Assembly (NCBI GenBank): GCA_947176605.1
Contig: CAMWRH010000018.1
Location: 1 to 47,926 of the forward strand
DNA: 47,926 nt
Direction of reading: 5' to 3'
Origin: an uncultured Porphyromonadaceae bacterium
Lineage (GTDB): Bacteria; Bacteroidota; Bacteroidia; Bacteroidales; Muribaculaceae
Position 1 is the stretch's first letter. Each line of letters begins with the position of its first letter. The notes under the pieces are model-generated. The model was not told the origin of the DNA. It did not search any database and was given only the letters and a program-made list of their open reading frames with translations. Below are positions 8,633 through 41,827 of the stretch, piece after piece. The translations under genes and the position numbers were made by a program.

Positions 8633-8672
8633 TCGGTGCGGTTCCCCACAGGGGAATCGCACCGATCTCTTT
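8633..8672 (+). terminator. Terminator of the small lipoprotein gene
   Basis: A 15-base-pair stem (8633-8647 with 8651-8665, one G-T pair) with an ACA loop is followed by TCTCTTTT. It starts about 30 bases after the stop codon at 8599-8601. Confidence 0.8.
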
Positions 8673-8760
8673 TCATACCCTTTCATACCCCTTATACCCC
8701 TTCATACCCTCTCATACCCTCTCATACCCCTTATACCCCTCTCATACCCTTTCATACTCT
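8671..8760. repeat. Nine-unit degenerate decamer array (YTCATACCC)
   Basis: Nine tandem units of TTTCATACCC, TCTCATACCC or CTTATACCC follow each other without gaps, at spacings of 9, 10 or 11 bases and mostly 10. The array is strongly strand-biased (pyrimidines on +). It starts right after the lipoprotein terminator and ends just before a 17-base-pair hairpin. No coding frame is plausible. Confidence 0.8.
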
Positions 8761-35697: not shown

Positions 35698-35766
35698 CAT
35701 ACCGGCTCTCCGGCCATACGCACCCTTCCGCTTCGGAGGAGTGCGTATGGCCGGAGGGTCGGTATG
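35698..35766 (+). terminator. Long compound hairpin after secG
   Basis: A perfect 16-base-pair stem (35708-35723 with 35741-35756) carries a smaller CCTTCCG/CGGAGG stem in its loop. It is extended outside a 3-base internal loop by CATACCG (35698-35704) and CGGTATG (35760-35766). It probably ends or protects the secG transcript. There is no T-run right after it. Confidence 0.6.
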
Positions 35767-35897: not shown

Positions 35898-35931
35898 TTT
35901 GGTACAGACTCCATATTTTTCACTAATTTTG
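35898..35931 (+). promoter_or_regulatory. Candidate promoter of the steroid-reductase operon
   Basis: TTTG (35898-35901) precedes TAATTTTG (35924-35931) by 22 bases, slightly longer than the usual 19-21. Transcription would begin near 35937, about 63 bases before the ATG at 36000. Confidence 0.55.
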
Positions 35932-35999: not shown

Positions 36000-36794
36000 A
36001 TGTTTGATACCGACATATATTATTCAGTGGTGATAGGCATGGTCATTCTGGCTGCCATCGTATTCATCGCACTGCAACGCGTCACTCCCGGATACGGCAT
36101 GACCTACGACCGCAAGTGGGGTCCGGCCATCAACAACCGTATAGGCTGGGTGCTGATGGAGGCTCCCGTATTCCTCACCATGCTCCTGATGTGGATCATG
36201 GCCCCCCCGGAGCGGCGCGATGCCGCCCCTACGGTAGTGATGACGCTGCTGTTTCTGCTGCATTATTTCCAAAGGTCGTTTGTGTTCCCGCTGATGATCA
36301 AGGGCACGAGCAAGATGCCCCTGTCGATAATCCTGTCGGGAGTAACATTCAATCTGCTAAATGCCTACATGATAGGAGGATGGTTCTTCTATCTCACTCC
36401 GCCGCCACATATCTTCGGCCACTCGGGATATCCGGCCGACTGGCTGTCATCGCCGATATTCATACTGGGCACCCTCGTCTTTGCAGCCGGCATGGGCATC
36501 AACCTGCATTCCGACCATATAATACGCAGCCTGCGCAAGCCGGGCGACACGAATCATTACATACCGCGCGGAGGGATGTTCCGCTACGTGACTTCGGCCA
36601 ATTACTTCGGCGAACTGCTCGAATGGTCGGGATTCGCACTGCTCACCTGGTCGCTGCCGGGGGTAGTGTTCGCCATATGGACATTCGCCAATCTCGCCCC
36701 CCGCGCCAAGGCCACCCATGGCCGCTATATCGAAAAATTCGGCGATAGCTATGCATCTCTCCGACGCCGATACATCATACCGTTCATCTATTGA
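36000..36794 (+). CDS. Steroid 5-alpha-reductase family protein (SRD5A1/2-like)
   Basis: The 264-residue protein is an integral membrane NADPH-dependent reductase expected to reduce the delta-4 double bond of 3-oxo steroids or bile acids to the 5-alpha form. The C-terminal third is strikingly like animal SRD5A: NLHSDHIIRSLRKPGD (168-183), PRGGMFRYVTSANYFGELLEW (189-209) and RRRYIIPFIY at the end. Glu54 (in LMEAPVF) and Tyr89 (in HYFQRSF) match by position the residues that hold the 3-keto group in SRD5A2. About six or seven hydrophobic helices are visible. It leads a five-gene unit with two more oxidoreductases. Lipid or other sterol substrates cannot be excluded. Confidence 0.88.
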   Translation: MFDTDIYYSVVIGMVILAAIVFIALQRVTPGYGMTYDRKWGPAINNRIGWVLMEAPVFLTMLLMWIMAPPERRDAAPTVVMTLLFLLHYFQRSFVFPLMIKGTSKMPLSIILSGVTFNLLNAYMIGGWFFYLTPPPHIFGHSGYPADWLSSPIFILGTLVFAAGMGINLHSDHIIRSLRKPGDTNHYIPRGGMFRYVTSANYFGELLEWSGFALLTWSLPGVVFAIWTFANLAPRAKATHGRYIEKFGDSYASLRRRYIIPFIY

Positions 36795-36818
36795 ACTCCC
36801 TCCTCCACTATACACACA

Positions 36819-38036
36819 ATGCTTTTCACACCTGCCAATATCGGTCCGGTGACTTTGCGTAACCGCACCATACGCTCCGCCGCCTTCGAAGGGATGGGGC
36901 GCGACAATAACCCTACGCCTCAGCTGCGCGACTACCACTGGAGTGTGGCCGACGGTGGCGTGGGGATGACCACCCTGGCCTATGCCGGAATATGCCGCTC
37001 GGCCCTTTCTTTCGATACCCAGCTGTGGCTTCGCCCGGAGATTGTCCCAAGTTTGCGGGAGATTACCGACGGCATTCACCAGCGCGGCGCGAAGGCCTCG
37101 ATACAGATAGGCCATTGCGGCAACATGACACATATCCGCACCGCCGGAGGTATCCCGGTAGCCCCGAATACGGGCTTCAACCTCTACTCACCCACCATTT
37201 GCCGCGGACTCCGCCACGATGAGCTCCGTCAGCTGGCTCGCGATTTCGGCAACGCCGTGCGCACCGCACGTGATGCCGGATTCGACTGTGTTGAGGTACA
37301 TGCCGGACACGGATACCTCATCTCCCAGTTCCTGTCGCCTTACACCAACCGCCGCCGCGACCGCTTCGGCGGGTCGCTCGACAACCGCATGACGTTCATG
37401 CACATGTGTCTTGATGAGGTCATGACGGCGGCCGGATCGGATATGGGCGTGCTCGTGAAGACCAATATGCGCGACGGCTTCAAAGGCGGACTCGATATCG
37501 ACGACTGCCTCACGGTGGCCCGCAATATCGAAAGCCACGGCGTGCATGCCCTCGTGCTCTCGGGTGGATTCGTAAGCAAGGCCCCGATGTATGTGATGCG
37601 CGGCGAAATGCCGATCTGGACCATGACCCACTACATGAAGCAGCTATGGCTGAAATACGGCGTGCGCATGGCCGGAAAGTTCATGATCCGCCCCGAGCAT
37701 TTCGAGCCACTGTATTTCCTCGAGGATGCCCGCCGCTTCCGCGCCGAGCTGAAGATGCCGCTGGTGTATGTGGGTGGAGTAATCGACCGTCCCGGTGCCG
37801 ACAAGGTGATGGCAGAGGGGTTTGAGTTCGTGCAGATGGGACGCGCCCTGCTCAATGAGCCCGATTTCGTCAACCGCATGAAGGCCGACTCGTCCCACCG
37901 CTGCGGATGCGACCACGTCAACTACTGCATCGCCCGCATGTATTCAAAGGAGATGGCATGCCATAAGCATCTTAAAGAGCAGCTTCCCCCGGCCATAATG
38001 CGCGAAATAAAGAAAATCAAGGAGCGCGACGTATGA
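36819..38036 (+). CDS. Old Yellow Enzyme-type flavin reductase (candidate 5-beta-reductase)
   Basis: The 405-residue protein is an FMN TIM-barrel of the NADH:flavin oxidoreductase family: the N-terminal LFTPANIGPVTLRNR, QIGHCGN (97-102), HAGHGYLISQF (161-171) and FGGSLDNR (183-190). It ends after the barrel and lacks the FAD/NAD(P) domain of BaiCD-like bile-acid reductases. Four cysteines near the end (362, 364, 370, 381) may hold an iron-sulfur cluster, though their spacing differs from the usual C-x2-C-x3-C-x11-C. In gut Bacteroidota such enzymes act as 5-beta-reductases on 3-oxo-delta-4 bile acids; the role here is inferred. It overlaps the next gene by ATGA. Confidence 0.85.
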   Translation: MLFTPANIGPVTLRNRTIRSAAFEGMGRDNNPTPQLRDYHWSVADGGVGMTTLAYAGICRSALSFDTQLWLRPEIVPSLREITDGIHQRGAKASIQIGHCGNMTHIRTAGGIPVAPNTGFNLYSPTICRGLRHDELRQLARDFGNAVRTARDAGFDCVEVHAGHGYLISQFLSPYTNRRRDRFGGSLDNRMTFMHMCLDEVMTAAGSDMGVLVKTNMRDGFKGGLDIDDCLTVARNIESHGVHALVLSGGFVSKAPMYVMRGEMPIWTMTHYMKQLWLKYGVRMAGKFMIRPEHFEPLYFLEDARRFRAELKMPLVYVGGVIDRPGADKVMAEGFEFVQMGRALLNEPDFVNRMKADSSHRCGCDHVNYCIARMYSKEMACHKHLKEQLPPAIMREIKKIKERDV

Positions 38037-38839
38037 AAAAAACTCTGAAGGGTAAGCTGGCCATTGTCACCGGCGCTTCCGGCGGAATAGGGCTGGAATT
38101 CTGCAAGACTCTGGCAGAGCGTGGCATGGTCCTGCTGATGATTTCGATTGACGACGAGCCCCTGCGCGAGGCGGCGGCGCTTGTGGCGGAGGTGTATGGC
38201 GTTGAGACACATCCCCTCACCCTCGACCTCTGCCGCGAGGATGCCCCCGACAGGATCTTCGGCTATCTGGAGAATCTTGACCTCGATCCGGTGATGCTTA
38301 TCAACAATGCCGGAATCTTCTCTTTCGCTCCTGCCACCGAAATCGCTGAAAGGAAGGTGCAGGCGTTCATCGATCTGCACGTACATGCCGCCACGATGCT
38401 GAGCATCCGCTTTGCCTCCTACTTCCGCCAGAGAGGAGGGGGATATATACTCAACATGAGTTCGATGTCGTGCTGGATGCCGATGCCCGGACTGTCGATG
38501 TATGCCGCCACAAAGGCCTATATCCGGGTGTTCAGCCGTGCGCTGCATTACGAGATGCGCGACTATGGGGTGAAGGTGATGGTGGCATGTCCCGGCGGAA
38601 TAGCCACCGACCTGTTCGGACTCCCCGACAATCTGAAGCGTCTCGCCCTGCGTCTGGGAGCCATCGCTCGCCCCGAGGTGTTCGCACGCCGGGCCGTGCG
38701 CCGGCTGCTGCGCGGACGCAAGCAGTATGTCAACGGTCTGACCAACCGCATGGCGATTCTCTTCATCGGATGCCTCCCCACCCGGGCCCGCATGATGGTA
38801 AAGCACCGCCTGCTCGACCGTGGAATCACCCGCCCCTGA
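38033..38839 (+). CDS. Short-chain dehydrogenase (candidate hydroxysteroid dehydrogenase)
   Basis: The 268-residue protein has a Rossmann fold with TGASGGIG (13-20) for cofactor binding, NNAG near residue 87, the catalytic Ser in NMSSMS (near 142) and YAATK (near 157), followed by the PGGIATDL loop. The C-terminal 60 residues are basic with a hydrophobic patch (RMAILFIGCLP), as in the 17-beta-HSD12-like branch of the family. In this gene setting a 3-beta-hydroxysteroid dehydrogenase is the best guess. The ATG overlaps the preceding stop by four bases, so the two enzymes are translationally coupled. Confidence 0.85.
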   Translation: MKKTLKGKLAIVTGASGGIGLEFCKTLAERGMVLLMISIDDEPLREAAALVAEVYGVETHPLTLDLCREDAPDRIFGYLENLDLDPVMLINNAGIFSFAPATEIAERKVQAFIDLHVHAATMLSIRFASYFRQRGGGYILNMSSMSCWMPMPGLSMYAATKAYIRVFSRALHYEMRDYGVKVMVACPGGIATDLFGLPDNLKRLALRLGAIARPEVFARRAVRRLLRGRKQYVNGLTNRMAILFIGCLPTRARMMVKHRLLDRGITRP

Positions 38840-38874
38840 GGCGCAGACGCAGCTCTGCAGATTTATGACTGGTT

Positions 38875-39240
38875 ATGGGCCGACGATTCGTTTTCTCTAC
38901 ATCCACCGAACTGGTGCGGGTGCCGCCGGAAACGCTGGTATACATCTCTGCCGACGGCAACTACTCCGTCGTAGTCACCGCCGATGGAGAGCGGCTTCTG
39001 CTCACCATGCAGCTCGGACAGATGGAACGCCGCATAGGCGACATGGCCGACAGCAGTGAGCATCGCTTTATCAGAATAGGTAAGAGTCTGATTGTCAACC
39101 GCGATTACATCGCCCTTATCAATCCCGTGCGGCAGCGGCTCATACTGTCTGACTGCCGCACATTCCGCCATGAAGTGTCGGCCTCAAAGGAGGCACTGAA
39201 GGCTTTGAAGGATCTCTTGGAAAAGGAGGCTATACAATGA
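38875..39240 (+). CDS. Stand-alone LytTR DNA-binding protein
   Basis: The 121-residue protein is almost only a LytTR domain: VYISADGNYSVVV near residues 22-34, FIRIGKSLIVNRDYIALINP near 65-84, and the C-terminal VSASKEALKALKDLL helix. There is no receiver, sensor or membrane domain, so it may bind a small ligand or partner protein. It starts 35 bases after the dehydrogenase, on the same strand, and its stop overlaps the next gene (ATGA). A local regulator of this operon is the simplest reading. Confidence 0.85.
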   Translation: MGRRFVFSTSTELVRVPPETLVYISADGNYSVVVTADGERLLLTMQLGQMERRIGDMADSSEHRFIRIGKSLIVNRDYIALINPVRQRLILSDCRTFRHEVSASKEALKALKDLLEKEAIQ

Positions 39241-40118
39241 AAGACCGACATAACGATATCAATGATGATGAAATACGCATCATCTCTACCGATGACCCCG
39301 TATCCCGTCCTGACCGCAAGCCCCGCAAACGGACAGTAGCCGTGCTCTGTGGCATCGTCTCGTTCGTGCTGCTGGCAGCAGTGGCCTTAATCCTCTTCCT
39401 TCCGAAGGTTACGGATCCGGAAGCCGGAACCCCTATCCCGGCGGCGGCAACCCTGAAAGCCGTCAATACGAATCCGGCTCCCGCCGAAATGGCTCCTACG
39501 GCACCCTCTCCGGCCTACACGCTGCGCTCAGACACAGCCGTCAACGGCATCCACCTCACGTTCCTTACTCCGGTCAATGCGACCCCGGTGCTTGAAGTAG
39601 GCAATGCCGTGATCAATGATTCCACCCCGGTACTGATCGCCCAGGCTGCCGACATACGGGGCGACAACGGCGAAATCGTAGGTGCGTTTATACTTAAGGG
39701 CAGACTGATCAGCAAAAGTGAGGCAAAGGCGGGTTTCTGCTCTATAATCAACGGGGAGGTGACGTTAGGTGTGGCTGATGCGACTCCGATGTTTGAACAG
39801 GCTCTTGTGGCTGATGGATATTTCTTCCGCCAGTACCCGCTTATCGCCGGTGGCCAGATGGTGGAGAACAAGCCCAAAGGGCGCTCCATACGCAAGGCCC
39901 TGGCGGAGACCGACGGCCGCCTCAGCGTAGTAATAAGCACCGAACGCGTCACATTCCACGACTTCTCCCAAGCCCTCGCGGAGGCAGGAGTGCGCAACGC
40001 CATCTATCTCACCGGAGGCTCTACCTACGGGCGCTACACCGATGCCGACGGCGCTGTATCTGTCTTCGGACACTACTGGAAAGACACCCCCAACGTCAAC
40101 TATATCGTCTGGCGCTGA
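39237..40118 (+). CDS. Membrane-anchored phosphodiester glycosidase (DUF2233/NAGPA-like)
   Basis: The 293-residue protein has a charged N-terminus, one transmembrane helix (about residues 34-56, VAVLCGIVSFVLLAAVALILFLP), a Pro/Ala-rich spacer, and a C-terminal domain of the NAGPA/DUF2233 type (about 95-293): KPKGRSIRKAL, an IYLTGGSTYGRY segment, and the final NVNYIVWR. Family members cleave phosphodiester-linked sugars or related bonds outside the cytoplasm. Coupled to the LytTR gene by ATGA. Its link to steroid metabolism is unknown, and it might belong to a separate function carried in the same transcript. Confidence 0.8.
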   Translation: MKDRHNDINDDEIRIISTDDPVSRPDRKPRKRTVAVLCGIVSFVLLAAVALILFLPKVTDPEAGTPIPAAATLKAVNTNPAPAEMAPTAPSPAYTLRSDTAVNGIHLTFLTPVNATPVLEVGNAVINDSTPVLIAQAADIRGDNGEIVGAFILKGRLISKSEAKAGFCSIINGEVTLGVADATPMFEQALVADGYFFRQYPLIAGGQMVENKPKGRSIRKALAETDGRLSVVISTERVTFHDFSQALAEAGVRNAIYLTGGSTYGRYTDADGAVSVFGHYWKDTPNVNYIVWR

Positions 40119-40216
40119 GTCGCTCCTCCCCTGTCATGCCCGGCCGGTGCATGCCATGCGTCCCCGGCCATCCCTACACAAGGCATTTCATACATCTCTG
40201 ACGGCACTTCATACAA

Positions 40217-40250
40217 ATCCGGCGCATCCTCTTCGCCGGATGATTTTTTT
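40217..40250 (+). terminator. Intrinsic terminator of the steroid-reductase operon
   Basis: ATCCGGCG (40217-40224) pairs with CGCCGGAT (40234-40241) and is followed by GA and seven Ts (40244-40250). It is a classical rho-independent terminator, about 100 bases after the last stop. Confidence 0.88.
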
Positions 40251-41660: not shown

Positions 41661-41690
41661 TCTGAAAAATTTGATTTATTGGTTATGCGG

Positions 41691-41777
41691 GATTTATCCC
41701 GATTCATCGGGTTCATCTCGATTTATCGGGTTTATCCCGATTTATCTCGATTCTCTTGATTTATCCCGATTTATTAA
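41691..41777. repeat. Nine-unit degenerate array (GATTTATCCC), spacings 9 and 10
   Basis: Nine tandem units of GATTTATCCC-like sequence (GATTCATCGG, GTTTATCCC, GATTTATCTC and similar) follow each other with unit lengths 10,10,9,10,9,10,9,10,10. The array fills the space between the terminator of the TPR lipoprotein gene and purT. It is partly self-complementary, since GGGAT and ATCCC both occur. Confidence 0.8.
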
Positions 41778-41783
41778 GAAGAA

Positions 41784-41818
41784 TCGGGATTTACCGGATT
41801 AATCCCGGTAAATCCCGA
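41784..41818 (-). terminator. Hairpin terminator of the TPR lipoprotein gene
   Basis: TCGGGATTTACCGG (41784-41797) pairs perfectly over 14 bases with 41805-41818 around a 7-base loop, 10 bases after the stop codon of the reverse gene. The stem uses the same ATCGGGATTTA words as the adjoining decamer array. Confidence 0.65.
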
Positions 41819-41827
41819 CTTTGTGAT

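Follow-up and report, generated by a model that had tools for sequence, protein, structure and literature searches.

We analyzed a 47,926-nucleotide stretch of DNA (the window), which is the entire contig C18 of a 2.89-Mb, 145-contig assembly from an uncultured Porphyromonadaceae bacterium (Muribaculaceae in the GTDB lineage). We focused on five consecutive genes that encode a steroid 5-alpha-reductase (5AR), a flavin oxidoreductase (OYE), a short-chain dehydrogenase (SDR), a free-standing LytTR protein and a NAGPA-like membrane protein (Table 1). An earlier note on this DNA had described five same-strand genes with small gaps or ATGA overlaps. A scan for open reading frames (ORFs) bore this out: all five ORFs were present, every one on the forward strand, with ATGA overlaps at the OYE/SDR and LytTR/NAGPA junctions and gaps of 24 bp between 5AR and OYE and 35 bp between SDR and LytTR.

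Table 1. Genes and transcription signals at the 5AR–NAGPA locus (positions in the window).
Feature	Position	Strand	Details
5AR, membrane steroid 5-alpha-reductase, SRD5A family	36000-36794	+	264 aa; Pfam Steroid_dh 6.7e-44
OYE, single-domain NADH:flavin oxidoreductase, putative 5-beta-reductase	36819-38036	+	405 aa; Pfam Oxidored_FMN 1.1e-49
SDR, short-chain dehydrogenase, putative 3-beta-hydroxysteroid dehydrogenase (3-beta-HSDH)	38033-38839	+	268 aa; Pfam adh_short 8.7e-38
LytTR, free-standing DNA-binding protein, gene 1 of independent pair	38875-39240	+	121 aa; Pfam LytTR 4.2e-12
NAGPA-like single-pass membrane protein	39237-40118	+	293 aa; Pfam NAGPA 4.5e-7
Inverted repeat of 33 nt in the SecG–5AR interval	35698-35766	.	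fold −59 kcal/mol, z −10.4
Candidate −7 element of a Bacteroidota-type promoter, TAnnTTTG (TAATTTTG)	35924-35931	+	76 nt 5′ of 5AR ATG
Tandem 9-bp repeat TTTCATACA-N12-CTTCATACA, candidate LytTR site	40186-40215	+	9+8 matches; just before terminator
Terminator: hairpin and T-run	40217-40250	+	overlaps place of relatives' target-gene promoter

The inverted repeat upstream of 5AR is likely the boundary between the SecG and 5AR transcription units. The candidate promoter that the earlier note had placed at 35898-35931 found no match among sigma-70-like sites, and what stands of it is the Bacteroidota −7 element at its 3′ end. A TAnnTTTG word occurred within 130 nt 5′ of 5AR in 45 of 63 relatives, against 3.15 expected from mononucleotide shuffles; no TTTG was found at the usual 19-nt spacing 5′ of the window's own element. 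The intrinsic terminator claimed for the 3′ end is present: a scan called a terminator-like hairpin with a T-run at 40225-40242 (a weak call taken alone, as the scan returned 12 sites per 10 kb against 7.3 in shuffled sequence), and the segment 40186-40260 folded at −13.4 kcal/mol (z −2.1). On the forward strand, no ORF of at least 80 aa was found in the interval from NAGPA to the far end of PurT, a gene of the reverse strand.

The 5AR protein matched two steroid 5-alpha-reductases in the Protein Data Bank (PDB), 7c83 (2.1e-50) and 7bw1 (1.7e-42), and more weakly a very-long-chain enoyl-CoA reductase (2.8e-9). We aligned 121 Bacteroidales rows, which are partly non-independent as some genomes appear under two handles, with human SRD5A2. 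The equivalents of human E57, Y91, N160, D164, R171, E197, R227 and Y235 were identical in all 121 rows, and that of N193 was kept in 120. The catalytic Glu and Tyr (E57 and Y91) correspond to E54 and Y89 of the window protein. The likeness to the SRD5A family (PbSRD5A, 7c83; human SRD5A2, 7bw1) thus comprises both of these residues and seven of the eight NADPH residues (PMC7815742; this and the other papers are cited here from excerpts). The OYE protein retains the HxxH motif and Tyr (H161, H164 and Y166), and its C-terminal tail, C364-x-H366-x-N368-Y369-C370-x10-C381, was invariant in all 42 aligned sequences. Judged from the residues, the tail could possibly bind a metal or an Fe-S cluster through an unusual set of ligands, presumably resembling the Fe-S site of BaiCD-like enzymes minus one Cys.

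The arrangement of these three genes is conserved. Of 61 genomes, 36 had the 5AR gene; within the genus, 32 of 37 did (the window's own counted). Among 35 relative loci fetched, 30 held an OYE above the score limit, and in 29 of these a 5AR gene lay at most 400 bp before the OYE gene and an SDR gene at most 2.5 kb behind it. We also analyzed the best 80 of 495 titled-record loci, a set that does not include the characterised loci of P. merdae, O. laneus and B. dorei: 52 of the 80 had 5AR before and SDR behind OYE. Under a tighter rule, the trio was present in 49 of the 71 loci with room on both sides, and in 31 of the 71 when the SDR had to reach at least 34% identity. At the order level, OYE matches of any strength occurred in 119 of 247 genomes. 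Among the 29 best loci besides that of the window, each covered with a 1.5-kb flank and counted by eye, 5AR preceded OYE in 22 and an SDR of at least 34% identity followed it in 18. The order 5AR–OYE–SDR is therefore widespread in Bacteroidales; in Bacteroides and Phocaeicola loci, the downstream SDR was often only 20–27% alike. Together, the linkage counts and the differing SDRs of the latter genera suggest that the 5AR–OYE link is old and that the SDR partner is variable.

Bacteroidota 5AR genes are reported to be clustered with a predicted 3-beta-HSDH and a BaiCD/BaiH-like NADH:flavin oxidoreductase (PMC10382948). In the window, the 5AR, flavin oxidoreductase and SDR genes are adjacent on one strand, and the trio has the same three families as the 5AR/5-beta-reductase/3-beta-HSDH cluster of P. 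merdae and others (PMC10382948, PMC9645264). With catalytic residues and gene order conserved and the published description (PMC10382948) matched, the earlier proposal of a reductive steroid or bile-acid cluster is supported for genes 1 to 3. We conclude that the trio is a new member of the published Bacteroidota steroid/bile-acid cluster, in a genus of Muribaculaceae.

The LytTR and NAGPA genes behaved differently. By tblastn, neither was found near the trio in any of 25 relative loci or of 60 titled-record loci with no less than 4 kb of sequence 3′ of OYE. The closest relative found was L280 (5AR 77%, OYE 90% and SDR 78% identical); there, the SDR gene is followed by genes for an exported-looking protein of 213 aa, an ATPase-like one of 430 aa and a peroxiredoxin-like protein (all named by eye) and then by the same PurT. 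The sole LytTR match of the L280 genome was at 44%, and none was found in the genomes G007, G017, G019 and G034. A search of the family returned some LytTR match in 112 of 297 genomes, and in all 29 best-scoring loci besides that of the window (one cut by a contig end) NAGPA adjoined LytTR. The two were also adjacent in two loci of the genus (L100 and L101) and in four distant loci (L102–L105), and no NAGPA gene was found at six more distant LytTR loci (L106–L110 and L112). These results show that LytTR–NAGPA is an independent module. The earlier note had counted both genes as part of the cluster and had named a lack of linkage of the five genes in related genomes as a refutation. Linkage held for genes 1 to 3 and failed for genes 4 and 5, which among the loci read stand beside the trio only in the window. 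We considered a chimeric contig as the cause of this juxtaposition and find it unlikely because L280 shares both the trio and its PurT border. The juxtaposition looks like the accidental product of a rearrangement. On viral contigs, the pair pattern gave 22 matches, none of them related. Among the literature matches listed, 15 of 364 in one search and 15 of 978 in another, no title concerned a LytTR–NAGPA pair, a weak negative. Elsewhere, at L106:5274-7094 (contig C9 of the window's own genome) and L110:2589-3646, an FHA-domain gene stands behind a free-standing LytTR gene, and in L106 a caspase-like (Peptidase_C14) gene comes next.

We then examined 22 relatives of the pair, namely 20 picks from the family search (19 among the 29, and G289, a weaker match) plus L100 and L101. 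Behind the pair, a gene termed c2 (~357 aa, lipoprotein-like by eye) was present in 15 relatives and c3 (~720 aa, judged exported by eye) likewise in 15; 4 of the 22 had a gene that clusters with an alpha-2-macroglobulin (Pfam checked in L101 only). Neither c2 nor c3 of L100 had a Pfam match at 0.001. In L101:1-8834, LytTR–NAGPA lies directly 5′ of two genes, one for the alpha-2-macroglobulin and one for a penicillin-binding protein; L178, L182 and L192 have genes that cluster with this macroglobulin. In the window, the c2, c3 and macroglobulin-cluster genes are all absent behind the pair. Copies of c2 (43%) and c3 (34%) on contig C130 of the window's genome were considered as possible lost partners; the upstream end of C130 is poly-C, and the contig stops there, short of the place expected for the repeat. 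This end (L195, G000:C130) carries a run of ~51 C upstream of c2, either an assembly artefact or a homopolymer.

The NAGPA-like protein of the window has a cytoplasmic tail with the motif DINDDEIRII, a hydrophobic stretch near residue 36 and an outer NAGPA-like domain. The tail motif, [DE][IL]x[DE][DN][EQ]IR[IVF]I, was present in all 23 pair members (first residue D in 18), as was the hydrophobic stretch behind it (Kyte-Doolittle mean of at least 1.6 over 19 residues). The motif was found in none of seven other homologues, comprising four distant pair members and three unpaired proteins. The Asp of the LDGG motif is catalytic in NAGPA. In the window, TGG stands at the expected LDGG, and V, T, P or I occupies the Asp position in all 23 close and all 4 distant members of the pair family; two of the three unpaired homologues have Asp there and the third has P. 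The Pfam NAGPA score of the window protein was 30.7 bits, above the curated cut-off of 25. A profile of the pair family matched Slr0280 (5h3k, E 0.00028), whose LDGG aligned to LvGG of the profile, and matched NAGPA itself only at E 0.29. A PDB search with the single window sequence gave no match up to E 1, and in a tree of NAGPA proteins the window protein fell outside any supported group.

Behind NAGPA lies a candidate LytTR site. The tandem repeat TTTCATACA-N12-TTTCATACA was found within 200 bp after the NAGPA stop codon in 22 of 23 pair loci, the window counted (21 of the 22 relatives; it was not found behind NAGPA in L176), with a spacer of 12 in 21 loci and 11 in one. At least 17 of 18 positions matched in 17 of the 23 loci, against none for 300 permuted words. 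The repeat also has a fixed geometry relative to promoter-like words: of 21 relatives, 19 (all but L182 and L189) had TTTG exactly 16 nt 3′ of it, and 20 had their best −7-like word 19 nt further on. At these places the window has TTCG at −33, seen in none of the 21 others, and GAAATTCG at −7, whose TTCG ending is shared by L179, L183, L184 and L186. In 17 of the 22 relatives, a TAnnTTTG word lay at most 130 nt 5′ of the listed LytTR start; in L188 it stands at +3. None was found in the window at 38500-38880, around the LytTR start. In the window, the repeat was likewise found neither 5′ of LytTR nor around the 5AR promoter, so the sole candidate LytTR site near the five genes is at their far 3′ end, which argues against the self-regulated version put forward in the earlier note. 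The window's genome as a whole has one strong repeat site and one with three mismatches, and a reversed control pattern gave one. Of the stand-alone c2 genes, that of G263 carries the repeat upstream (17/18); those of G117 and G017 have none close upstream, with weak matches (13–14/18) elsewhere in their loci. The window also holds, at 8671-8757, a tandem array of 8.8 copies of TTTCATACCC-like 10-mers, similar to the LytTR repeat and not a match to it.

This organization recalls the LytTR Regulatory Systems (LRS), in which a membrane-inhibitor gene stands behind a LytTR gene and the spacing of the 9-bp repeats is mostly 12 bp; according to the excerpted account, only those of S. mutans had been characterised as of 2018 (PMC6193735). 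Like them, the pair has a soluble LytTR followed by a membrane-protein gene, and 9-bp direct repeats with a spacer within 11–13 bp upstream of a promoter (PMC6193735). It differs in its membrane partner, a single-pass NAGPA-like protein. It is also unlike the LRS-like systems described in Bacteroides, which combine 11-bp repeats with an upstream NfeD/DUF2154 protein (PMC6193735). In LRS the repeat precedes the regulator operon's own promoter (PMC6193735), whereas in the pair it mostly precedes the genes behind. Because gene order and repeat agree and the position of the repeat does not in most members, we class the pair by analogy as LRS-like, short of membership.

Taken together, the locus probably consists of two modules on one likely transcript, a steroid trio and an LRS-like LytTR–NAGPA pair that does not control it. 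Judging from their families and published relatives, 5AR would deliver a hydride to C5 from the alpha face of 3-oxo-delta-4 steroids or bile acids, the beta side would fall to OYE (in the forward or the reverse reaction), and the C3 oxo or hydroxyl group to SDR. The NAGPA-like protein may hold or control LytTR through its conserved cytoplasmic tail, with the outer domain, probably inactive, sensing an envelope signal. Freed LytTR would then bind TTTCATACA-N12-TTTCATACA and switch on the promoter right behind, which in relatives would drive c2–c3 or the alpha-2-macroglobulin gene. In the window, the pair lacks both its targets and a recognisable promoter of its own; it would probably be expressed by read-through from the steroid promoter, the simplest route.

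Several observations weigh against this reading, among them that the window is a single contig of the 145 in its assembly, and four alternatives have to be considered beside it. Within the trio, human Q56 of the QEY signature is replaced by Met in all 121 rows (M53 in the window), a difference of the whole group, and the H231 position holds T, I, L, S or V, non-His in all 121. The Bacteroidales 5AR thus departs from the SRD5A signature at its Gln and also at H231, and the human variants Q56A and Q56L are inactive (PMC7815742). Mechanism or substrate may therefore differ from those of SRD5A2. Together with an OYE score far under the NCBIfam BaiCD cut-off (178 against 825 bits), these replacements would suit a trio devoted to quinone, fatty-acid or own-lipid reduction and not to host steroids. 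By analogy, however, Met at the Q56 position is probably compatible with 5AR activity, because other Bacteroidota are reported to make derivatives of allolithocholic acid (alloLCA) via 5AR, and disruption of 5AR in P. merdae stops their formation (PMC10382948). The strong PDB matches to steroid 5-alpha-reductases and the far weaker one to enoyl-CoA reductase also speak against another metabolism, which we consider very unlikely. A true five-gene, self-regulated steroid or bile-acid operon, whose LytTR–NAGPA senses a steroid or glycan and controls 5AR–OYE–SDR, would explain the shared strand, the two ATGA overlaps and the single terminator at the end. The 35-bp SDR–LytTR gap has no visible terminator, which leaves room for such a working operon, and the lack of a TAnnTTTG word around the LytTR start makes co-transcription with the trio likely. 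Against this stand the missing linkage in the loci with room, the absence of the repeat from the places where self-regulation would need it, and the occurrence of the pair elsewhere without the trio. We rejected the five genes as a unit because the linkage is missing in relatives, and regard this alternative as highly improbable.

For the pair, the contrary points concern the repeat, in addition to its departure from the LRS position. At 14 matches, the best permuted word reached 19 of 23 loci behind NAGPA (mean 0.56), and permuted words reached maxima of 18 at 15 matches and 17 at 16. We attribute these counts to one-base-shifted words of the same letters that overlap the same repeat. A full TAnnTTTG at the 19-nt place was seen in only 3 of 21 target promoters. 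The repeat occurs before LytTR in 4 of 22 relatives (L178, L182, L184 and L101) and is absent there from the window and the other 18; all four have TAnnTTTG at the 18- or 19-nt place and no TTTG at −33, and their number is barely above that of the best permuted words (5 at 14 matches, 4 at 15 and 3 at 16). The repeat might instead work at the 3′ end as part of a terminator, serving as an RNA element or a roadblock rather than as a promoter operator: by eye, many relatives have a hairpin and T-run that overlap this stretch, and in the window no gene lies behind it. The fixed distances to TTTG and the −7-like word, kept even in L181 and L187, which have no evident hairpin (by eye), make this very doubtful. 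It is also possible, if unlikely, that the NAGPA-like protein has phosphodiester glycosidase activity, directed at a glycan of the envelope or the diet, and that LytTR regulates the operon for that glycan. The Pfam score over the cut-off and the exported look of c2 and c3 point in this direction, but the replaced LDGG Asp and the conserved cytoplasmic tail point away from it.

Preferring two modules, we conclude that the regulator extension of the trio is a local juxtaposition, and that the proposed LytTR–NAGPA switch with its tandem site, which varies a known theme, is the more interesting part. The pair offers a concrete regulator for which the binding site, the promoter and the tether are all predicted. 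A bolder and rather unlikely version is that of an undescribed Muribaculaceae membrane-linked LytTR switch whose envelope sensor is a dead glycosidase and whose control of envelope genes runs through the TTTCATACA tandem site; in this genome the steroid operon would have captured it, and exposure to host steroids or bile acids would then set the dose of this envelope-stress switch. The trio, for its part, extends a health-relevant steroid/bile-acid reduction cluster to a Muribaculaceae genus. Muribaculaceae are abundant in mammal guts, and the share of genus genomes with 5AR suggests that such activity may be widespread in mouse models. Downstream of the locus, a tandem array of TTATCGGGATTTATCCCGAT-like units occupies 41683-41774, between PurT and a TPR gene, and adjoins a long hairpin at 41782-41820 that was called on both strands.

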